From positions 1 through 64,000 of the forward strand of contig CAJOFU010000001.1 in the NCBI GenBank assembly GCA_905233935.1: a DNA stretch of 64,000 bases, in the 5' to 3' direction. Made by a program: the position numbers and the translations under genes. This DNA is from Paludibacteraceae bacterium. Lineage in GTDB: Bacteria; Bacteroidota; Bacteroidia; Bacteroidales; Paludibacteraceae. Of this stretch, positions 21,943 through 58,187 are shown one piece after another (the stretch's first letter is position 1; every line of letters begins with the position of its first letter). The notes under the pieces were generated by a model, which did no database searches, was not told where the DNA came from, and was given only the letters and a program-made list of their open reading frames with translations.

Positions 21943-22017
21943 TATGTATGCAATAAATGATAATAATCGATGACCAGCATTGCCGATTGAAAGAACACTC
22001 AATTGACAATTTGCGTG

Positions 22018-22049
22018 CAAAGATACGATTTTTTTTGCAAATATGCAAA
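22018..22049 (-). promoter_or_regulatory. Promoter for the C69 peptidase-pepD unit
   Basis: Minus strand: TTTG (22046-22049), 20 nt, TATCTTTG (22018-22025). Its -33 box is 4 nt from that of the divergent rlmI promoter. Confidence 0.82.
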
Positions 22050-22053
22050 TTTT

Positions 22054-22085
22054 TTTGCAATATTCAATAATTTTTAGTAACTTTG
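22054..22085 (+). promoter_or_regulatory. Promoter for rlmI
   Basis: TTTG (22054-22057), 20 nt, TAACTTTG (22078-22085), about 28 nt before the rlmI ATG. Confidence 0.82.
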
Positions 22086-22113
22086 CCCGAAATATCACAA
22101 AACAACAAGCGGC

Positions 22114-23367
22114 ATGACAACCATAATTCTCAAACCTCATAAAGAGGAATCCGTCTTGCGATTTCATCCATGGGTTTTCTCGGGAGCGATAGCCCGTATT
22201 GTATTAGATGCCACTCATCGAGCCGCAGCGCCGGAGGAAGGCGAGTTGGTGTGCGTACAAAGCGCAGACGAGAAAGTGCTCGGTGCAGGTCATTGGCAAG
22301 TGGGATCTATCGCTGTGCGGTTGTTGGCATTTGGGGATGAACGGATTAGCGGGACAGAGGATGAGTGGATTAGGGGCTTGCTGCTCAAGCGCATAGCCGC
22401 AGCATACCGGATGCGTCAACGGCTCGGACTGCTTCGCGAGGATAACAACACATACAGGCTGATACACGGCGAGGGAGATATGCTGCCCGGATTAGTGGTG
22501 GACGTGTACGGTGATACCGCCGTAGTGCAGGCACACTCGGTGGGAATGCATCAATGCCGGAAAGCAATAGCCGAGGCGATTGTGAAAGAGGTGAAGGAAG
22601 TAGATGCGGTGTACTATAAGTCGGATGACACTCTACCGTTCAAGGCACAGATAGAAGGGGAGAAGACGGGGTACTTGATTGAGAAATCAGAAGTCAGAAA
22701 TCAGAAATCAGACAATATAGAATACTGGGCGAAGGAGAACGGAATTGATGTGCGCATTGACTGGCTGCGGGGACAAAAGACGGGATTCTTTATCGACCAG
22801 CGTGAGAACAGAGCATTAGTGGAGCGTTATGCGGCAGGGAAAGATGTGTTGAATATGTTCTGCTATACGGGAGGATTCTCGCTGTACGCGCTACGCGGCA
22901 GAGCGAAGAGTGTACATTCGGTGGATGTGAGCCAGAAAGCGATAGATCTGGTGAATGCGAATGTAGAGAGGAATTTTCCTCATTGCCCAAACCACAAAGC
23001 CGTGACGGCTGATGCATTTGACTACTTGAGCGAGCAACGGGCACAGGGGCACCAGTATGACCTGATCATATTAGATCCACCTGCGTTTGCCAAGCACCGT
23101 GACGCGGTTAAGAATGCATTGCGCGGATACCAACGGATCAACGCCAAAGCGATAGAAATGATCCGTCCGGGAGGAATACTGTTCACGTTCAGTTGTTCGC
23201 AAGCAGTAGATAAAGAGGCGTTCAGGCTGGCAGTATTCAGTGCTGCGGCACAGACAGGCAGAAAAGTGCGGATATTGCACCAACTGCATCAGCCACAGGA
23301 TCATCCGATCAATATCTATCACCCCGAAGGAGAATATTTAAAAGGACTTGTATTGTACGTAGAATGA
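22114..23367 (+). CDS. rlmI: 23S rRNA (cytosine-5-)-methyltransferase, RlmI type
   Basis: Class I SAM-dependent methyltransferase, 417 aa. The N-terminus is PUA-like (KPHKEESVLRFHPWVFSGAI). The central region has QKTGFFIDQRENR and NMFCYTGGFSLYAL (SAM motif I), then DLIILDPPAFAKH and FSCSQ with the catalytic Cys region. Two in-frame repeat arrays lie in it: an 8-mer array (FGDERISGTEDEWIRG) and a heptamer array (EKSEVRNQKSDN) just before the catalytic domain. The stop overlaps the next ATG by 4 bp. Confidence 0.9.
   Translation: MTTIILKPHKEESVLRFHPWVFSGAIARIVLDATHRAAAPEEGELVCVQSADEKVLGAGHWQVGSIAVRLLAFGDERISGTEDEWIRGLLLKRIAAAYRMRQRLGLLREDNNTYRLIHGEGDMLPGLVVDVYGDTAVVQAHSVGMHQCRKAIAEAIVKEVKEVDAVYYKSDDTLPFKAQIEGEKTGYLIEKSEVRNQKSDNIEYWAKENGIDVRIDWLRGQKTGFFIDQRENRALVERYAAGKDVLNMFCYTGGFSLYALRGRAKSVHSVDVSQKAIDLVNANVERNFPHCPNHKAVTADAFDYLSEQRAQGHQYDLIILDPPAFAKHRDAVKNALRGYQRINAKAIEMIRPGGILFTFSCSQAVDKEAFRLAVFSAAAQTGRKVRILHQLHQPQDHPINIYHPEGEYLKGLVLYVE
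22335..22374. repeat. 8-bp tandem repeat inside rlmI, 5 units
   Basis: GGATGAAC, GGATTAGC, GGGACAGA, GGATGAGT, GGATTAGG, in frame. Confidence 0.75.
22683..22717. repeat. Heptamer array inside rlmI, 4-5 units
   Basis: GAAATCA, GAAGTCA, GAAATCA, GAAATCA, GACAATA. It has the same units as the arrays at 15765 and 56318, but here it is translated (KSEVRNQKSDN). Confidence 0.88.
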
Positions 23368-23834
23368 AACGATTCATTAGCATTATTATCGGAGTGCTGT
23401 GTGCAGTGTGGATGCAAGCTGCCCTGCCGAGTGTGGCACTCAAGGATGTGGACGGCAAAACCGTCAAAACGGAGAGCTTGGCAGAACAAGGCAAGCCGGT
23501 GATTATTGCATTCTTTGCAACATGGTGCAAGCCGTGTATGCGCGAGTTGGAAGCCATCAACGAGTTGTATGCTGACTGGCAGGAACAGACCGGCGTGGAG
23601 ATGTATATTGTATCCATCGACCAAGGGCAGGATGTGAAGAAAGTCAAACCGCTGGTTGACGGTTACGGTTGGGATTACCATGTGCTGCTTGACCCGAACA
23701 GCGAGCTGAAGCGGGCGATGAACGTGCAGAATGTGCCTCATCTGTTTGTGATTGACAGCAAGGGACAGACGGTATATAACCATACGGGATATACCGATGG
23801 CAGTGAGAAGGAAATCAAGCAGTTCTTGAAATAG
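23364..23834 (+). CDS. TlpA-like thioredoxin-fold protein
   Basis: Exported thiol-disulfide protein, 156 aa. A signal peptide (MKRFISIIIGVLCAVWMQA) is followed by an AhpC/TSA-Redoxin fold with the active site WCKPC (ATWCKPCMRELEAI) and the cis-Pro segment NVPHLFVID. It is predicted to act in the periplasm. It overlaps rlmI by ATGA and is followed by the Omp28/DUF6029 cluster, whose Omp28-like members also carry CxxC motifs. It may keep these reduced or oxidised, which is inference from context. Confidence 0.9.
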   Translation: MKRFISIIIGVLCAVWMQAALPSVALKDVDGKTVKTESLAEQGKPVIIAFFATWCKPCMRELEAINELYADWQEQTGVEMYIVSIDQGQDVKKVKPLVDGYGWDYHVLLDPNSELKRAMNVQNVPHLFVIDSKGQTVYNHTGYTDGSEKEIKQFLK

Positions 23835-23842
23835 TTCTTATC

Positions 23843-23873
23843 TCGGCAAAGCCTCGAACGATCGGCTAAAGCC
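23843..23873. repeat. Direct repeat of a small hairpin
   Basis: TCGGCAAAGCC and TCGGCTAAAGCC start 19 bp apart. Each can form a short GGC/GCC hairpin. They lie between the TlpA-like and barrel genes. Confidence 0.5.
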
Positions 23874-23880
23874 GTATGGA

Positions 23881-23915
23881 GTGTTGAGAGTTTAGTGTTT
23901 AGAATTGAGAGATTA
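23881..23915. repeat. Heptamer array at the start of the barrel gene, 5 units
   Basis: GTGTTGA, GAGTTTA, GTGTTTA, GAATTGA, GAGATTA. The third unit contains the only usable start codon (GTG 23895) of the next gene. Confidence 0.85.
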
Positions 23916-25607
23916 CATATTGCGGTGCTGGTATTAGGGTTGCTATTGGCGAATAGCCGATGGCTAACTGCCAATGATACCGTGTATGTGAGTGGCGGCA
24001 TTCAGCATGACGGGCTCTTCCCTACGCGGGATGTATCGGCTGTACGCACTGCGCCACGAGGCGAGTGGGCGAAGATCGACCATTTGAGCAACAACTATCT
24101 CGACTTGTCAATGAATTACCTGCGCACTGATAGTAATGCCGCACAATTTCGCGGTTTGCGCGCGGACACACGATTAGAATTGAATCAATGGCCGCTACTC
24201 GGTTATGAACCCGGATTCGCCGGTCACGGCATAGGCAGGCTGAGTGTGATGGCAGACTTTGCATGGGGACAGATCTGCGTAGGCGATGTGTATGGACAGT
24301 TCGGGTCGGGAATGATTCTAAACTTGTACGAAAACAGAGACCTTGGTATAGACAACCCGTTGCGAGGTGCAAAGATCAGTGCATCACCGTACAAAGGTAT
24401 TCATCTGACACTGCTTGGCGGCAAGCAACGACGTTATTGGAATTGCTATCATGATGGTGCGTGGGGCTGGAACTACAAGCAGGATGCCGCATTGGGGGCA
24501 GACCTGGAGTTAGGTTTGCACGAGTGGTTACACGGGCTGCAACAGAGTGATCTTGAACTGACTATAGGCGGAAGTTACGTGAGCAAGTACGAACATGAAG
24601 ACACCGTGTTGGTTACACTGAGTGACGGTTTGTATCGATACAACTTGCCACGTTGGGTAGGCGCCGGTGAGGTGCGAGCCAACCTGCAAGGAAAAGGCTG
24701 GGATGCACTCATCGAATATGCCTACAAAGCCAACGACCCGACGCTGGAGAATAGTTACAGTTACCGTTCAGGACAGGCGTTGCTGCTGTCATTGGGCTAC
24801 TCACGAAAGGGATTGTCGGTGCTGGCACAAGCCAAACGTTCGGATAACATGTCACTGCGTTCGTCGCGTAGTGTAAGAGGCTTGGCAGGCAGACTGAACC
24901 TGTTGCCGGTGTTCACTCCACAGCACACCTACGCTCTGGCAGCCCGTTACCCCTACGCCACGCAGTATATCATCGGTGAGTGGGCTTTTCAGGCAGAAGT
25001 GCGCTATACAGCTCCGAGGAAGAGCAAGGTGGGCGGAAAGTACGGCACGACGTTCAAGCTGAGTATTGCTCATGTGCGCGGACTACGTGAAGAGGGCAGT
25101 TGGGCAGTGAACACCACAACCGACGGCACGTACTACACGGATATCCATGCGGAGTTACATAAGAAAATCAATGCATACTGGACGCTCAACGCAATGCTGA
25201 TGTATCAGACCTACAACCGAAAGGTCATTGAAGGTGAAGGCGGTTTGGTGCGTGCAGGAGTCGCTGTATTGGATAACAAGATACATATTACGGATAACAT
25301 CACTCTGCGTAATGAGTTGCAATACTTATATACAAGGCAGCACAAAGGGCAGTGGGTATATGTGTTAGCAGAACTGGATTTGTGGCAACATTGGACGGTT
25401 TCCGGCAGTTGGGAGTATAACATCGGCTACGCACCGGATGAGACGAAGGAGCACAACTACACGGCTATGCTGACTTATTCAAACGGTGCACACCATGTAT
25501 CAGCAGGTTACGTGAAGACGAGCAGCGGGTTCAATTGTTCAGGTGGAGTGTGCCGCTATGAGCCGGAGCAGGAAGGAGTGAGGATGAGTTATAGTTTTAC
25601 GTGGTGA
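23895..25607 (+). CDS. Outer-membrane beta-barrel protein, DUF6029-like
   Basis: 570-aa exported protein. After the signal peptide come YVSGGIQHDGLFPTRD and LSNNYLDLSMNYL, then a long run of amphipathic strands ending in Phe-Trp-type residues (VRMSYSFTW), typical of a barrel. It resembles DUF6029 proteins that accompany Omp28-like genes in Bacteroidales; the match is from memory and moderate. No ATG exists at the 5' end. GTG 23895, inside a heptamer array, is the only good start and gives MFRIERLHIAVLVLGLLLANS. Substrate and role are unknown. Confidence 0.78.
   Translation: MFRIERLHIAVLVLGLLLANSRWLTANDTVYVSGGIQHDGLFPTRDVSAVRTAPRGEWAKIDHLSNNYLDLSMNYLRTDSNAAQFRGLRADTRLELNQWPLLGYEPGFAGHGIGRLSVMADFAWGQICVGDVYGQFGSGMILNLYENRDLGIDNPLRGAKISASPYKGIHLTLLGGKQRRYWNCYHDGAWGWNYKQDAALGADLELGLHEWLHGLQQSDLELTIGGSYVSKYEHEDTVLVTLSDGLYRYNLPRWVGAGEVRANLQGKGWDALIEYAYKANDPTLENSYSYRSGQALLLSLGYSRKGLSVLAQAKRSDNMSLRSSRSVRGLAGRLNLLPVFTPQHTYALAARYPYATQYIIGEWAFQAEVRYTAPRKSKVGGKYGTTFKLSIAHVRGLREEGSWAVNTTTDGTYYTDIHAELHKKINAYWTLNAMLMYQTYNRKVIEGEGGLVRAGVAVLDNKIHITDNITLRNELQYLYTRQHKGQWVYVLAELDLWQHWTVSGSWEYNIGYAPDETKEHNYTAMLTYSNGAHHVSAGYVKTSSGFNCSGGVCRYEPEQEGVRMSYSFTW
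23939..23973. repeat. Heptamer array in the signal-peptide end, 5 units
   Basis: GTTGCTA, TTGGCGA, ATAGCCG, ATGGCTA, ACTGCCA encode LLANSRWLTA at the predicted signal cleavage region. The units resemble those of the array upstream of feoB. Confidence 0.75.
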
Positions 25608-25610
25608 TTT

Positions 25611-25645
25611 TAGTTGAGTGTTTAGTGTTTAGAGCTGAGAGATAT
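25611..25645. repeat. Heptamer array at the start of the first Omp28-like gene, 5 units
   Basis: TAGTTGA, GTGTTTA, GTGTTTA, GAGCTGA, GAGATAT. It is nearly the same array as at 23881 and again contains a GTG start followed by TTTAGA..GAGAGA. Confidence 0.88.
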
Positions 25646-26434
25646 ATTGCTATCATGTTGTCAGTAATAGTGCTGGCAGGATGCGAGGTGATCGGCGAGA
25701 GTGAACGGCTCATACCGATGCCAGTGCCGGTTGACAGCACCGAACGGGCGCATGTATTGATAGAATTCACGGGATTTCGTTGTGTGAACTGTCCGAAAGC
25801 GTCTGCTGAGGCAGAGGCACTAAAACAAACATACGGTGAACGCCTGATTGTCGTGGCTATGCACCCGGCATCGAATCCGTTCACGCAGGGCGCAGCACTA
25901 TTCGATTATACCTGCGAGGAAGCGGATGTCTATTACCGATATATGGGCGGCAATGCCACAACGCCATTTCCAACAGGGAATATTAATTTTACGAGCGATG
26001 AAGAGGGTTTTCTGAACGATTACCCAACGTGGGCAACTCTGCTTGCGCAGCAGATGAGTCAGCCGACAGAGGTACACTTGAGCGTACAGGCAATGCGTGA
26101 CAACAATACAAATAACATCACCGTAACAACCACTGCATCTGCTGACAAGATGCAAGACTGCAGGCTGGTAACGTGGCTCATTGAAGACAGTATACAAGGT
26201 GCACAAGCAATGCCTGACGGCAGTGTGAACAGAGACTATTATCATCGCCATGTGCTACGTATGGCAGCGGGCGATGCGTGGGGAGAGAACAAGACAATTC
26301 CGTTCACAGCGGTTACCGTTACCACAACAATGACGCTGCCTGACGGCTGCGAGCCTAAGCATTGCAGCATAGTAGTTGCAGCATTGGACGAAAATAACAG
26401 AATAATCAACGCAAGACAAACAACTATACAATGA
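25625..26434 (+). CDS. Omp28-related lipoprotein with thioredoxin-like domain
   Basis: Exported lipoprotein of about 269 aa. Possible starts are GTG 25601, GTG 25604, GTG 25625 and ATG 25655. I choose GTG 25625 because it gives a lipoprotein signal with a basic start (MFRAERYIAIMLSVIVLAGC); ATG 25655 leaves too short a signal. The mature part has VLIEFTGFRCVNCPKASAEAEAL (Omp28-type thioredoxin fold with CxxC) and a beta-sandwich C-terminus. It overlaps the next gene by ATGA. The function of the family is not settled. Confidence 0.85.
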   Translation: MFRAERYIAIMLSVIVLAGCEVIGESERLIPMPVPVDSTERAHVLIEFTGFRCVNCPKASAEAEALKQTYGERLIVVAMHPASNPFTQGAALFDYTCEEADVYYRYMGGNATTPFPTGNINFTSDEEGFLNDYPTWATLLAQQMSQPTEVHLSVQAMRDNNTNNITVTTTASADKMQDCRLVTWLIEDSIQGAQAMPDGSVNRDYYHRHVLRMAAGDAWGENKTIPFTAVTVTTTMTLPDGCEPKHCSIVVAALDENNRIINARQTTIQ

Positions 26435-26985
26435 AGAAATTGATTTTTACACTGACAGCCCTACTGCTCATGCAGAGTGCGCATGCACTGATCGTAAGCG
26501 TCAAGGGCGAAGGCGAAGTGAGTGAAGAAGGCATGAGCCTGATCATCACTGAAGGCGAAGAAGACATCCTGACAGGAAAGTACACGATGGAATTGGAAGG
26601 CGATGTGCTGATCAATTCCGGCGAACTTGAGATGCAGATCATCCGTTCTTCCAGTGGATTAGAAGACGAGTTCTGCTGCGGGAACAATTGCACAGCAGGC
26701 AATGGCGAAACTCAAGAGACGAAGACATTCAACATCAACGATGGTGTTGCACATTGGTATTCGCATTACGTGCCGGTGTTAGGTTCGAACGAAACCATCC
26801 GGTATATCTTCCGCGACGGTGAGGAAAGTCTTGAGGTGCGCGTGCAATATGTATATCAGACCGACGCTGTAAGCGAGGTGAAGGATGATAAGGCTGCAAC
26901 GAGCAAGATATTACATGACGGTCAAGTGTATATCCAACGTGACGGACAGCTGTTCACTATAACCGGAACAATGGAAAAGCAATAA
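26431..26985 (+). CDS. Secreted protein of unknown function with repeat-type C-terminal motif
   Basis: 184-aa exported protein (signal MKKLIFTLTALLLMQSAHA). It is acidic, beta-rich and has a CCGNNC cluster (~87-92). The C-terminus, SKILHDGQVYIQRDGQLFTITG, resembles the last residues of the 628-aa surface protein at 40760 (QKMIIDGQLFIIRDGVMFNANG). This shared tail may be an export or anchoring signal. I do not recognise the family. It is translationally coupled to the Omp28-like gene before it. Confidence 0.75.
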   Translation: MKKLIFTLTALLLMQSAHALIVSVKGEGEVSEEGMSLIITEGEEDILTGKYTMELEGDVLINSGELEMQIIRSSSGLEDEFCCGNNCTAGNGETQETKTFNINDGVAHWYSHYVPVLGSNETIRYIFRDGEESLEVRVQYVYQTDAVSEVKDDKAATSKILHDGQVYIQRDGQLFTITGTMEKQ

Positions 26986-27006
26986 AACGGCATAAACTAT
27001 GAACGT

Positions 27007-27477
27007 ATGAAAAGAACGATTTTGATTTTACCATTGCTGCTGTTGACAGTGATGGCGCGGGCAGAAGCAGGGCTGCAAGTTCACTATCTGACAGGTAGTG
27101 ACAAGCAATACGCTGTTTCGCTCATCGGGCAAATAACGTTTGCCGACAATGTGATGTATTTGTACGACAAATCGAAAACCGAGTTGGGACATACAGCCGT
27201 AGCAGATATTGACAAGATTGTGTTTGGCGAATATGTGCCCTCTTCGGTGAATGATATCGAAGTACGTGTGGCTGTCTATCCGAATCCGACACATGATGCC
27301 ATGGTGATTAAGGGTTTGTCGGCAGGTCAGACAGTACGTGTATATGACTTGCAGGGACGACTGCTATCCGCTACGCAGACGCAAGCAGAAAGTACGCTTA
27401 TTGATGTCAGCGCTTTGCAGAATGGTACGTACCTGCTGCAGATAGGTGCAGAAGTTGTGAAATTTATTAAGGAATAA
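27007..27477 (+). CDS. Small secreted protein with T9SS type A sorting domain
   Basis: 156-aa protein: signal peptide (MKRTILILPLLLLTVMARA), a short beta-rich region, then a type A C-terminal sorting domain from ~82 (VAVYPNPTHDAMVIKGLSAGQTVRVYDLQGRLL....LQNGTYLLQIG). This domain directs proteins through the type IX secretion system to the cell surface. The cargo part (~60 aa) is small and unassigned. Its presence shows the organism has a T9SS. Confidence 0.88.
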   Translation: MKRTILILPLLLLTVMARAEAGLQVHYLTGSDKQYAVSLIGQITFADNVMYLYDKSKTELGHTAVADIDKIVFGEYVPSSVNDIEVRVAVYPNPTHDAMVIKGLSAGQTVRVYDLQGRLLSATQTQAESTLIDVSALQNGTYLLQIGAEVVKFIKE

Positions 27478-27492
27478 CAAATATCGAGCAAT

Positions 27493-28980
27493 ATGAAGAA
27501 ATTATTTACATTGGTTCTTACTGCAGTGGCAGTAATGTGCATGGGCTTTGAGGTAACCCGCACCGAGATGCGCGTATGGGTAGGTGACGAGATCGCTTGT
27601 CAGAAAGACATAACAGAGATTGACAGCATAACGTTTGTGGAAATAACCGAACAACTACCTGACGCTTTCCCCAAGAAACATCTGATAGAGGAGTTCACGG
27701 GTCAGGACTGCGGTTGGTGCCCTTACGGAATGGACTGCGTACACGACTTCATTGGCGATGATGAGAACTGGGTACTTGTACTGCATCACTATGGTTATAA
27801 GAAAGACAACTTCTCAGTAACCGGCAGTCAGAATATTATGAACAAGTTAGGTGTCAATGGCGCGCCGAGTATTTCCATTGACAGAAAGGCAACAAAAAGT
27901 GACGCAGGAAATGCAATCTGCTTTCACCCGGGTTATCTGCCAACAGTAACATCGCAGTTTGAAACAACCACGTACGCTTCGATAGAGATTGAGAACACGT
28001 ACAGCGAGACTGATCGGAAATTGAACGTACATCTTAGCGGTTTGATCGTGAAAGAAGACTACCCCAACCTGATGCTTACTGTGCTGGTAAAAGAGTCCGG
28101 AATGATTGATTACCAACAGGATTATTACGGAACATTCGAAGGTTGGCAGGAGTTTCGTCACGCCAATGCCGTGCGCGCCTATCTCACTGCTCCGTTAGGT
28201 GACAGTCTGCGCGTGAAGAGCAACCACTCGTGGTCGGCGGATTATGAACTGACACTTGACAGCAAATGGGTAGCAGATAACTGTGCTGTAGTAGCATTTA
28301 TTTCTGAGAACTTCAAACCCGTTGTACAAGCCGAGCAACGTCCTGTTGTAGATGGTACGAAAGGTGGTTTGGATATATTGCACGGAGGTATTACTGCTGT
28401 TCCGGTAGCCGATTACTACCCGGAACCAGGAGAGGATATATCGCCGAGTACCTATTCCGGCAGAGACGCTGATACAATTACCACGGCGTATGGATATTAC
28501 TATTCGTATCCGGACGAGGGCTTCAATTACTGGCAGGTTCAGGCGTACGACTTAACCAAGACTGTAAAAGTGAACAATACGACCTGTGTGCCGTTCTTGG
28601 ATTTGTATCTGTTCACCAAGATTGACGAGACCACTATTCCTGTAGGTACATACAGATTGAACACCTCTATGAGACCTGGGACAGCTTACGCCGGATTCCG
28701 TGATGATGAGAAGATTCAGGTAGATGGTACGAGTTTCTACTATACGTCAAAAAGTTACTTATCGCAGGGTTATCTTGTTCCTGAGGCACAATGGCTCATA
28801 GCAAGCGGCACACTTACCGTAACGAAAGAGGGTTGGAAGATTACGGGGAAAGCTCGTAACGGATCAGACATCCAACTGGTAGGTACGAAGCCTATCAGCA
28901 TTCAAGGCAAAGCCGGTGCGCCGATGCGCGTCAAGACAAATGAAGCAACTGCTCCACAACGCGCGGTACGCCTACAGTAG
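27493..28980 (+). CDS. Omp28-related outer-membrane protein with CxxC thioredoxin fold
   Basis: 495-aa exported protein. The signal (MKKLFTLVLTAVAVMCMG) is followed by a short segment similar to that in the T9SS gene upstream, then HLIEEFTGQDCGWCPYGMD (Omp28 thioredoxin-like active site CGWC), NIMNKLGVNGAPSISIDR (cis-Pro) and C-terminal beta-sandwich regions. It is the last gene of the secreted cluster. Its 3' end overlaps the convergent sir2 gene by 50 bp, so the final ~16 residues are encoded antisense to sir2. Confidence 0.85.
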   Translation: MKKLFTLVLTAVAVMCMGFEVTRTEMRVWVGDEIACQKDITEIDSITFVEITEQLPDAFPKKHLIEEFTGQDCGWCPYGMDCVHDFIGDDENWVLVLHHYGYKKDNFSVTGSQNIMNKLGVNGAPSISIDRKATKSDAGNAICFHPGYLPTVTSQFETTTYASIEIENTYSETDRKLNVHLSGLIVKEDYPNLMLTVLVKESGMIDYQQDYYGTFEGWQEFRHANAVRAYLTAPLGDSLRVKSNHSWSADYELTLDSKWVADNCAVVAFISENFKPVVQAEQRPVVDGTKGGLDILHGGITAVPVADYYPEPGEDISPSTYSGRDADTITTAYGYYYSYPDEGFNYWQVQAYDLTKTVKVNNTTCVPFLDLYLFTKIDETTIPVGTYRLNTSMRPGTAYAGFRDDEKIQVDGTSFYYTSKSYLSQGYLVPEAQWLIASGTLTVTKEGWKITGKARNGSDIQLVGTKPISIQGKAGAPMRVKTNEATAPQRAVRLQ

Positions 28981-29626
28981 CCGGTTCACGTACCAACTGA
29001 ACACGTGAGGCATAAATGCCTAACTGAGGATCGCCCGGATCAACCATAATGATTCGGGCGTTTTCAGGTGCGTAATGCAACAGTGACGCGGCTGGATAAA
29101 CGTTGAGTGAAGTGCCTACGACAACAAGGATATCGGCTGTGGCGGCAATGTTGCAAGCCTCGGTGAAGTACGGAACACCTTCGCCGAAGAAGACAATATA
29201 CGGGCGAAGGAGCGAGCCGTTAGGATGACGGTCGCCATAATGTTGCTCCCAACCTTCGATCGGTACAGTGGCTATCTCGTCGTTCTCCGCACGGAGTTTG
29301 CGGATCTCGCCATGCAGGTGAACGACATTTGTCGCTCCGGCACGCTCGTGGAGATCGTCGATGTTCTGGGTAATGATACGTGTCCCCGGGATCGCTTGTT
29401 GCAGACGGGCGATAGCCTCATGGGCTGCATTGGGTTTGGCGTTGATGACATCACGGCGACGCGCGTTGTAGAAATCCACACAGAGTTGCGGGTTACGCAG
29501 CCATGCTTCGTGCGTGCACACGTCTTCAATACGATACTTCTCCCAGAGTCCGTCGGAGTCACGGAAGGTTCCTAAACCACTTTCAGCCGAAATACCGGCG
29601 CCGGTAAAAACAACAATTTTTTTCAT
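28931..29626 (-). CDS. NAD-dependent protein deacylase (Sir2/CobB)
   Basis: Sirtuin of 231 aa from ATG 29626; the track start at 29656 is a TTG inside a repeat. Motifs: FTGAGISAESGLGTFRD (NAD binding), ITQNIDDLHERAG, VVHLHGEI (catalytic His), RPYIVFFGEGVPY and VVGTSLNVYPAASLL. The zinc Cys pairs of classic sirtuins are missing, as in many Bacteroidota homologues. It is the last gene of the minus operon that starts at 37446. Confidence 0.92.
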   Translation of the reverse strand: MKKIVVFTGAGISAESGLGTFRDSDGLWEKYRIEDVCTHEAWLRNPQLCVDFYNARRRDVINAKPNAAHEAIARLQQAIPGTRIITQNIDDLHERAGATNVVHLHGEIRKLRAENDEIATVPIEGWEQHYGDRHPNGSLLRPYIVFFGEGVPYFTEACNIAATADILVVVGTSLNVYPAASLLHYAPENARIIMVDPGDPQLGIYASRVQLVREPATVGVPRVVEQLLHLS

Positions 29627-29652
29627 GGTCGTATAGTTTTTATTATTCACTT

Positions 29653-29687
29653 TCAAATGTCAAATAACAAATCTCAAATCTCAATGT
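29653..29687. repeat. Heptamer array in the manA-sir2 gap, 5 units
   Basis: TCAAATG, TCAAATA, ACAAATC, TCAAATC, TCAATGT. It overlaps the manA stop. Confidence 0.85.
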
Positions 29688-30585
29688 ACACTTCCAAGGC
29701 GCGGAAAGAGCCTGAGAGGCGGACATCAGCGGTTGTGGCGGAAAGGAGGATGAGTTCGCCCTTAGTGATAGTGGTTTGGGCATCATTCTCCAGTTCGGTC
29801 AGTGTGCATTCGCCATCCAAGCAGATAAGGCAGACGAAACTGTCAAGACGACTATATTCACGCAGAATGGGCTCAGTGACTTGCAGTACATTGGTGACAA
29901 AATACGGACAAGAAACGAGATTGTTTACTGCCTTGTCGTTTGCGGCGTTATCGCTGGTTCGCGCCAATTGCACATCATTGTAGTTGATGCACTCGGCGGC
30001 ACGCTCAGTGTGCAGTTCGCGCGGATTGCCCTCTTTGTCTCGGCGGTCGTAGTCGTAAATGCGGTAGGTGGTATCGGACGTCTGCTGAATCTCGCAGAGT
30101 TGACATCCCGAACCAATGGAGTGGATTCGTCCGGCAGGAATAAAGAAACAGTCACCGTCGCGTATCTCGTACTCAGCGAGTGCGCTAAGAATGGTTTTGT
30201 CGGCAACCATCTGTTTGTACTCATCGGGTGTGAGTTGCCGCTTGAGCCCGCAATAAATACGTGCACCCGGTTCGGAGGGAAGTGCATACCACATCTCGGT
30301 CTTGCCCCACGGCTCGCCGTACTTCTGTGCCCACTGATCGGAAGGATGAACCTGCACGCTGAGATCGTCACGGGCATCAATGAACTTGATGAGTAGGGGG
30401 AAAGTATCGCCATAACGGGCAAAGACGTGCTTGCCGACCAGTTGCTCTTTCTGCTCACATAGCATGCGCCAGATATTTTGTCCGGTCTCGACGCAGATAC
30501 TATCTCGTCCCGGGTAAGCAGAGAGAATCCATTGCTCTGCTCCCCAGATCATGGGTCGGTCTATGGGATAGAAGTGATATATCAT
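29674..30585 (-). CDS. manA: Mannose-6-phosphate isomerase, class I
   Basis: Type I phosphomannose isomerase, 303 aa, a zinc cupin linking fructose-6-P and mannose-6-P for GDP-sugar and glycan synthesis. Zinc-site motifs are LSVQVHPSDQ, GKTEMWYAL and FFIPAGRIHSIG. It is the short bacterial form without the large helical insert. The start ATG lies inside a small heptamer array. It sits between dnaG and sir2 in the operon. Confidence 0.93.
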   Translation of the reverse strand: MIYHFYPIDRPMIWGAEQWILSAYPGRDSICVETGQNIWRMLCEQKEQLVGKHVFARYGDTFPLLIKFIDARDDLSVQVHPSDQWAQKYGEPWGKTEMWYALPSEPGARIYCGLKRQLTPDEYKQMVADKTILSALAEYEIRDGDCFFIPAGRIHSIGSGCQLCEIQQTSDTTYRIYDYDRRDKEGNPRELHTERAAECINYNDVQLARTSDNAANDKAVNNLVSCPYFVTNVLQVTEPILREYSRLDSFVCLICLDGECTLTELENDAQTTITKGELILLSATTADVRLSGSFRALEVYIEI

Positions 30586-38590: not shown

Positions 38591-38622
38591 TTTGCAAATG
38601 TCAAATATTTTTTGTATCTTTG
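38591..38622 (+). promoter_or_regulatory. Promoter for prmC-recX-recO
   Basis: TTTG (38591-38594), 20 nt, TATCTTTG (38615-38622). The box ends only 4 nt before the ATG, implying a nearly leaderless mRNA. Confidence 0.82.
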
Positions 38623-38626
38623 CAGC

Positions 38627-39466
38627 ATGAAAGCAATAGTGGAACATATTGTCACGCAACTGACGCCCTGTTACGGCGAGCACGAGGCACGTGAACTGGC
38701 ATATTGGATCATTGAGGAAACAACCGGAATGAACCGTTTTGACCTGTGCACGCACAAAGGTACAAAAAATATACCAGATTTGGAAATAATTTTGAAAAAA
38801 TTATGTAAATTTGTTCCTGTGCAGTATATTTTCGGTCATACAGAGTGGTTAGGCTTGGATTTGGATGTAAACGAAGCCACCCTTATTCCCCGACCCGAAA
38901 CGGCAGAATTGGTTGAGGCAATCAGCAATCAGCAGTCAGCAATCAGCTGTCAGCGATCAGCAATCAGCAATCAGCAATCAGCAGTCAGAGTGTTGGATGT
39001 GGGGACGGGAAGCGGGTGTATTGCTTTGGCACTCAAAAAGAAACACCCTGAGTGGATTGTTGAAGGGCTGGACAAAAGCGAAGAAGCTATTGCAGTCGCT
39101 AAACGCAATGCTGCGAAACTGGGATTAGACGTGCGGTTCTTTGTGGAGAATATACTCAGCGACGAGATCGGCGAATATGACCTCATTGTGTCTAACCCGC
39201 CGTATATCCGACCGTCGGAAAGAGGGACAATGACAGAGAACACTTTGCTTCACGAACCCAAAGAAGCATTGTTTGTGCCGGAAGACGATCCCCTACTCTT
39301 CTATCGGCGCATAGCGCAGTTACATAAAGCAAAAGAACTGTGGTTCGAGATCAGCGAGACACAAGGCGATGCAATGCTTGAACTGATGCATCAAACGGAC
39401 TACGAGGCTGAATGCCTCAACGATATGTACGGCAAACAACGATTCATTCATGCAATACAAAAGTGA
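38627..39466 (+). CDS. prmC: Release factor glutamine methyltransferase
   Basis: PrmC/HemK, 279 aa, methylates the GGQ glutamine of release factors. ATG 38627 is chosen; the upstream TTG lies inside the promoter. Motifs: PVQYIFGHTEWLGLDLDVNEATLIPRPETAELVE, LDVGTGSGCIALALKKKHP (SAM motif I) and LIVSNPPYIRPSE (NPPY). Between the RPET segment and SAM motif I lies an insert, AISNQQSAISCQRSAISNQQSAVR, made of ten heptamers. Its 21-bp period gives a perfect heptapeptide repeat. The gene overlaps recX by 17 bp. Confidence 0.93.
   Translation: MKAIVEHIVTQLTPCYGEHEARELAYWIIEETTGMNRFDLCTHKGTKNIPDLEIILKKLCKFVPVQYIFGHTEWLGLDLDVNEATLIPRPETAELVEAISNQQSAISCQRSAISNQQSAVRVLDVGTGSGCIALALKKKHPEWIVEGLDKSEEAIAVAKRNAAKLGLDVRFFVENILSDEIGEYDLIVSNPPYIRPSERGTMTENTLLHEPKEALFVPEDDPLLFYRRIAQLHKAKELWFEISETQGDAMLELMHQTDYEAECLNDMYGKQRFIHAIQK
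38918..38987. repeat. Heptamer array inside prmC, 10 units
   Basis: GCAATCA, GCAATCA, GCAGTCA, GCAATCA, GCTGTCA, GCGATCA, then three GCAATCA and GCAGTCA. At 70 bp it is the longest and most regular array of the window. Confidence 0.95.
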
Positions 39467-40528: not shown

Positions 40529-40594
40529 TCCCGTTAAGCCCATGTTTCCCCCTTAATAGTCACGTAATGGTATCGCTTTTTTGTCGAGACAATC

Positions 40595-40649
40595 TTTAGT
40601 TCTTCTTTAGTTGTTCTTTAGTTCTTATTTAGTTCTTCTTTGGTTCTTC
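40595..40649. repeat. 11-bp tandem repeat, 5 units
   Basis: TTTAGTTCTTC with minor changes, five times, in the convergent gap after recO. Confidence 0.9.
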
Positions 40650-58125: not shown

Positions 58126-58167
58126 GTAGTCAGTTTTCAGTGTTCAGTTATCAGTAATCAGTTTTCA
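58126..58167. repeat. Heptamer array upstream of adk, 6 units
   Basis: GTAGTCA, GTTTTCA, GTGTTCA, GTTATCA, GTAATCA, GTTTTCA, directly upstream of the adk start. Confidence 0.88.
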
Positions 58168-58187
58168 GATGCACATTCATAAAAAAC

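Follow-up and report, generated by a model that had tools for sequence, protein, structure and literature searches.

Heptamer arrays probably absorbed as start codons and signal-peptide beginnings of two neighbouring genes in a Paludibacteraceae bacterium

The locus and its two arrays

The window, a stretch of 64,000 nucleotides, belongs to contig C1 of the 2.23-Mb metagenome-assembled genome (MAG) G000 of a Paludibacteraceae bacterium, whose closest relatives with a name are rumen Bacteroidales MAGs; several of these bear the label Paludibacteraceae. A gene for a DUF6029 barrel protein and a gene for an Omp28-type protein lie here in tandem, each entered at its 5' end by a short array of 7-base repeats. 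The features of the locus are as follows.

23364..23834, plus strand: thioredoxin-like gene of TlpA/AhpC type, preceding the barrel gene (open reading frame; Pfam AhpC-TSA, 3.8e-22)
23835..23864, plus strand: short dispersed element TTCTTATCTCGGCAAAGCCTCGAACGATCG, located after the thioredoxin stop and before array 1
23883-23910, plus strand: array 1, GTTGAGA GTTTAGT GTTTAGA ATTGAGA, spacer entering coding sequence (period-7 score 10)
23895..23897, plus strand: GTG within array 1, putative start codon of the DUF6029 gene (relative L022 has ATG at the homologous codon)
23895..25607, plus strand: DUF6029 barrel gene (Pfam DUF6029, 4.8e-130)
about 23895-23972, plus strand: predicted DUF6029 signal peptide MFRIERLHIAVLVLGLLLANSRWLTA, by inspection
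23948..23978, plus strand: end of the barrel signal peptide, possibly a decayed array (period 7 not significant here, clear in L022)
25601..25603, plus strand: upstream GTG, an alternative start for the Omp28-type gene, where many orthologues have the ATG that overlaps the DUF6029 stop
25613-25640, plus strand: array 2, GTTGAGT GTTTAGT GTTTAGA GCTGAGA, spacer entering coding sequence (period-7 score 12)
25625..26434, plus strand: predicted Omp28-type lipoprotein gene with a putative GTG start in array 2 (Pfam Omp28, 4e-27; orthologue 5' ends)

A sequence-only reading of this DNA had placed a GTG start inside each array, and the arrays themselves were borne out, as neither period-7 score was matched by any of 5000 shuffles and all other periods from 4 to 12 scored at most 6 in both. 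No in-frame ATG is found near the start of the barrel gene in the window, as that reading had stated, and GTG 23895 would open a 570-residue protein with the N-terminus MFRIERLHIAV that scores 435 bits against the DUF6029 profile (PF19494; gathering cut-off 27). GTG 25625 would likewise give a protein starting MFRAERYIAIM, whose N-terminal part MFRAERYIAIMLSVIVLAGC resembles, by inspection, a lipoprotein signal peptide, with a charged n-region, a hydrophobic core and the lipobox LAGC at 25673-25684, the Cys of which keeps its position in the listed orthologues with a readable coding 5' end. The gene product, earlier described only as secreted, is thus better regarded as a lipoprotein candidate. 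The further claim that this gene has no fitting ATG holds insofar as ATG 25655 would leave MLSVIVLAGC without a charged n-region, but two additional in-frame upstream GTGs, 25601 and 25604, had been overlooked. The context of both in-array GTGs is poor for a Bacteroidetes start, with T at -3 and G in the first codon position.

The dispersed element at 23835-23864 is missing from the sister locus L021, and similar copies (TTCTTATCTCG...AACGAT) occur in G000 at C5:56156, C17:10166 and C20:17529, the C17 copy sitting inside a heptamer array region. Further downstream, a Por secretion tail protein is encoded at 27007-27477 and a second Omp28-type protein at 27493-28980, which suggests a cluster of surface or secreted proteins. 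No Rfam family reached its gathering score in 22000-29700.

Gene starts in related genomes

The comparison of 5' ends covered some 40 orthologous loci. In the DUF6029 tree the window groups first with L021 and then with L022, in a clade with L023-L025, L027 and L028. L021 keeps both arrays and both GTGs, and array 2 differs from its sister counterpart by a single base; since the arrays recur nearly identical in this independently named MAG, an assembly artefact was rejected as their source. L022, 88%/86% identical to the window, carries an ATG at the exact codon of GTG 23895, giving MKGCNRYLFMLIVGVMSIINCQLSTA for the window's MFRIERLHIAVLVLGLLLANSRWLTA (26 residues each), and another at the exact codon of GTG 25625, giving MIRIEKYIAIMMSVIVLAGC for MFRAERYIAIMLSVIVLAGC (20 each to the lipobox Cys), and a different array directly precedes each ATG. 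The comparison with orthologues that the sequence-only reading had proposed therefore supports both in-array starts. The arrays most likely supply the start codons of the DUF6029 and Omp28-type genes, and we infer from these alignments that initiation takes place at GTG 23895 and GTG 25625.

Elsewhere among the relatives, the barrel gene would begin with TTG inside arrays of differing units in L023 and L025, with ATG immediately after an array of array 1's family in L028, with TTG directly after the upstream stop in L024, L032 and L033, and with ATG or TTG inside the end of the upstream gene in L029, L031, L039 and L048; across the start comparison, L023 has both TTG and GTG starts in arrays. 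For the Omp28-type gene, an ATG that overlaps the DUF6029 stop (acATGGTAA) is present in many relatives (e.g., L028, L029, L030 and L048); the window has GTG 25601 there. This common arrangement, together with a frame that in both the window and L021 runs from GTG 25601 through the array without a stop, would fit a start of the Omp28-type gene outside array 2, either at GTG 25601/25604 with the whole array coding or at ATG 25655. Such a start is nevertheless improbable: L022 has a stop in the 25601 frame and its ATG at the codon of GTG 25625, a start at 25601 places the hydrophobic VILVECLVF ahead of the charges, and MLSVIVLAGC from ATG 25655 lacks the positive charge that the orthologues' candidate signal peptides carry as Lys or Arg near the start.

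A repeat length of 7, which is not a multiple of three, a start inside the array and products predicted to be surface proteins also recall contingency loci, in which the gain or loss of one unit would shift the frame and switch both proteins on or off. Contingency loci consist of near-perfect repeats that vary in copy number, whereas the units here are degenerate, which lowers slippage, and no length change from the GTG on separates the two sister species: array 2 has equal length in the sister and array 1 shows no indel beyond that point. Array 2 also has a second GTG exactly one unit upstream, so that if one unit were lost a start would again stand at the same place. Phase variation is accordingly very unlikely.

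The sequence-only reading had also assigned the end of the barrel signal peptide to a second array. In the window, period 7 at about 23948-23978 is at chance level (657 of 2000 shuffles reach its score), and the claim was not sustained there. Because the periodicity is marginal in L021 (49 of 2000) and clear in L022 (0 of 2000), this segment may be a decayed array. In the barrel gene of L041, a repeat just upstream of and into 3001, coding AEAKAEARAEARAEAKAEAKAEA, makes the signal-peptide end and is another repeat-derived signal-peptide sequence.

Distribution of period-7 arrays in the genome

The arrays had been presented as a feature of these two genes, a view too narrow for the 109 period-7 arrays, about 13 per 100 kb, that were found in the 849 kb surveyed of the 2.23 Mb of G000. 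The next fundamental periods, 8 and 11, account for 36 and 33 arrays (periods 14 and 21, as multiples of 7, were not counted as fundamental), and the excess of period 7 over neighbouring periods recurs in G001, G007 and G014. Array density is 13-16 per 100 kb in the loci of the closest relatives (L021-L050, L053, L055) and 1.3 in those of other families. Of the arrays, 47 (43%) lie wholly inside genes and 62 do not; in 195 co-directional spacers of 20-99 bases, identity reaches 0.41 at lag 7 and 0.36 at the adjacent lag 8, compared with 0.27-0.30 for lags 3-6 and 9-13. The G000 sample uses 51 canonical units of 1172 possible, in both orientations, and 30 of 45 arrays in G007, a relative of 72% identity, use units also present in G000; the units are drawn from a limited repertoire. 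Of the 47 coding arrays, 33 contain no stop when read in sense, against only 12 when read in antisense. Among the period-7 arrays of the window, the longest has ten copies of GCAATCA (38918-38988) and lies inside the open reading frame 38612-39466, and an 11-base array of five copies (TCTTTAGTTCT) lies at 40593-40649.

In this survey, starts were assigned by a simple purpose-made gene caller and are rough; it misplaced those of both the DUF6029 and the Omp28-type gene, which were set by hand. In 63 of 576 genes an array, in some cases of period 8, overlaps the start or ends at most 15 bases before it, and array ends peak at -4 to 0 relative to start codons. Within long spacers, 16 arrays have a flanking start and 9 of them are no more than 30 bases away from it, against 3.0 expected (maximum 8 in 2000 placements); arrays near stops showed no clear excess there. 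Start regions with arrays are predicted to be less folded (mean -3.9 versus -5.8 kcal/mol, p=0.03). Non-ATG starts appear commoner beside arrays (7/55 versus 3/155, p=0.004; 6/55, p=0.011, with a C6 miscall dropped), a suggestive difference given the rough start calls and the inclusion of both hand-set window genes. Genes preceded by arrays show no excess of signal peptides (22/55 versus 62/155, odds ratio 1.0), and convergent spacers hold arrays about as often as others (4/22 versus 51/196, p=0.6).

The clustering of array ends 0-4 bases before starts, the proximity to starts in long spacers and the lower folding are what would be expected if the arrays were functional translation-initiation elements, that is, unstructured, C-poor or A-rich stretches before starts that aid initiation or re-initiation inside operons or, in a variant, heptamers bound by a protein such as ribosomal protein S1, and the repeats of Beggiatoaceae show the same position preference (PMC4679880). 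Against such a role stand the 51 widely different units in both orientations, the 43% of arrays inside genes, the similar filling of convergent spacers and the 14 of 35 spacer sites at which the sister genome has no array, and it is considered unlikely. The start proximity and the less folded initiation regions still leave room for a real translational role.

Turnover between sister species

Comparison with the sister genome G001, sampled as 1.06 Mb, showed that of 52 array sites 15 hold the same array, 20 a different array and 17 none, a split that rests on alignment thresholds with some borderline calls. In-gene sites were divided into 6 same, 8 different and 3 absent, and spacer sites into 9, 12 and 14. 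Length changes between the sisters are multiples of three in 11 of 12 cases within genes, while 24 of 29 in spacers are not. Next door to the barrel locus, the conserved SAM-dependent methyltransferase gene 22114-23367 contains an in-frame AGAAATC array at 22682-22712, where the sister has an array of GTTGAAA type that is 9 bases longer. A TCAGTTA-type array at 58130-58168, the complement of the published TAACTGA, lies 9 bases upstream of a minus-strand gene, and its sister counterpart has a dispersed element in the middle.

Slippage by itself does not readily account for an array giving way to one of another unit at the same site. An undescribed active process that swaps heptamer arrays at hot spots, from a small shared repertoire of units, is a tentative and rather doubtful explanation. 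If it were true, covering both spacers and in-frame sites inside genes, gene starts, signal-peptide ends and protein loops would be continually rewritten from 7-base words.

Relation to known heptamer repeats

Heptamer direct repeats with the unit TAACTGA have been described in Beggiatoaceae, some Cyanobacteria and Bacteroidetes, with a proposed role in translation initiation (MacGregor 2015, PMC4679880). The present arrays resemble them as tandem 7-base units located mainly in spacers (62 of 109 not wholly inside genes) and ending a few bases before start codons (63 of 576 genes with an array at or shortly before the start); some TAACTGA repeats also occur inside genes, mostly at gene edges, as in-gene arrays occur here. 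In that system a single unit prevails and related heptamers seldom form repeats, in contrast to the 51 canonical units in 849 kb of G000, and arrays 1 and 2 have the units GTTTAGW/GTTGAGW rather than TAACTGA. Unlike TAACTGA repeats, arrays here can encode a start codon and n-region, and arrays of different units replace one another at one site.

The GGGAATC and GGGGA(C/T)T heptamers of Xanthomonas and Nostoc (Rehm et al. 2015, PMC4692102) are likewise intergenic 7-base repeats, and those of Xanthomonas vary between the same genes of related species; they are G-rich and quadruplex-forming, whereas the arrays here are A/T-rich, without G-runs, of many units and often in genes. Heptameric simple sequence repeats are, as cited there from Mrazek 2007, over-represented in many bacteria, and the excess of period 7 among longer simple repeats is shared with the present genome; polymerase slippage is cited in the same paper as a tentative hypothesis for this period. 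The open-licence literature yielded no earlier report on this Bacteroidales group or on array-dominated intra-operon spacers. What is new relative to the known heptamers is the unit diversity, the overlap with start and signal-peptide codons and the replacement at the same site.

Absorption of tolerated repeats

Taken together, the arrays are best explained, with a probability of about 0.68, as tolerated repeats of fast turnover that were absorbed as start codon and n-region at two junctions. On this view, degenerate short arrays of period 7 number in the hundreds across the genome and accumulate where they are tolerated, namely in short gene-gene spacers and at permissive in-frame positions inside genes. 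They turn over fast, probably by polymerase slippage and recombination between like arrays, slippage being the presumed motor. An array may have extended into the following gene's 5' end at both the thioredoxin/DUF6029 and the DUF6029/Omp28 junction, so that a weak in-array GTG took the place of the old start and the next 5-6 array-derived codons (FRIER, FRAER) came to act as the charged n-region of a signal peptide. An array could serve in this way because an n-region demands nothing beyond a start codon and positive charge, and because translation in Bacteroidetes does not depend on a Shine-Dalgarno sequence at the start site. Bacteroidetes lack such sequences, and their initiation is instead adjusted by weak folding and by adenines upstream of the start (PMC6847099); a C-poor repeat would therefore be acceptable as a start region. 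Owing to the T at -3 and the GTG, weak initiation is predicted at both genes, and translational coupling to the upstream gene may help it.

The earlier proposal that the repeat was taken over as a start and export signal is thus partly supported and survives in its first half, given the supply of starts and the ATGs of L022. As to export, the array encodes the charged n-region, but the hydrophobic core and lipobox lie outside it. The absence of signal-peptide enrichment and the arrays in convergent spacers and inside genes argue that the repeats were absorbed rather than selected as a start or export module; their role at the two genes is best seen as a passive by-product of a genome-wide repeat habit rather than a dedicated export signal.

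On this account simple repeats can move the start of a gene. Across one genus, the same gene starts in the overlap with the upstream gene, directly after its stop, after an array or inside one, and weak GTG or TTG starts are absorbed as the start moves; gene callers that prefer ATG will misplace such in-array starts. The array swaps between sister species, in frame inside genes, constitute a testable natural record of the origin and spread of heptamers, a question standing since the 2007 report of their over-representation, as cited in PMC4692102.
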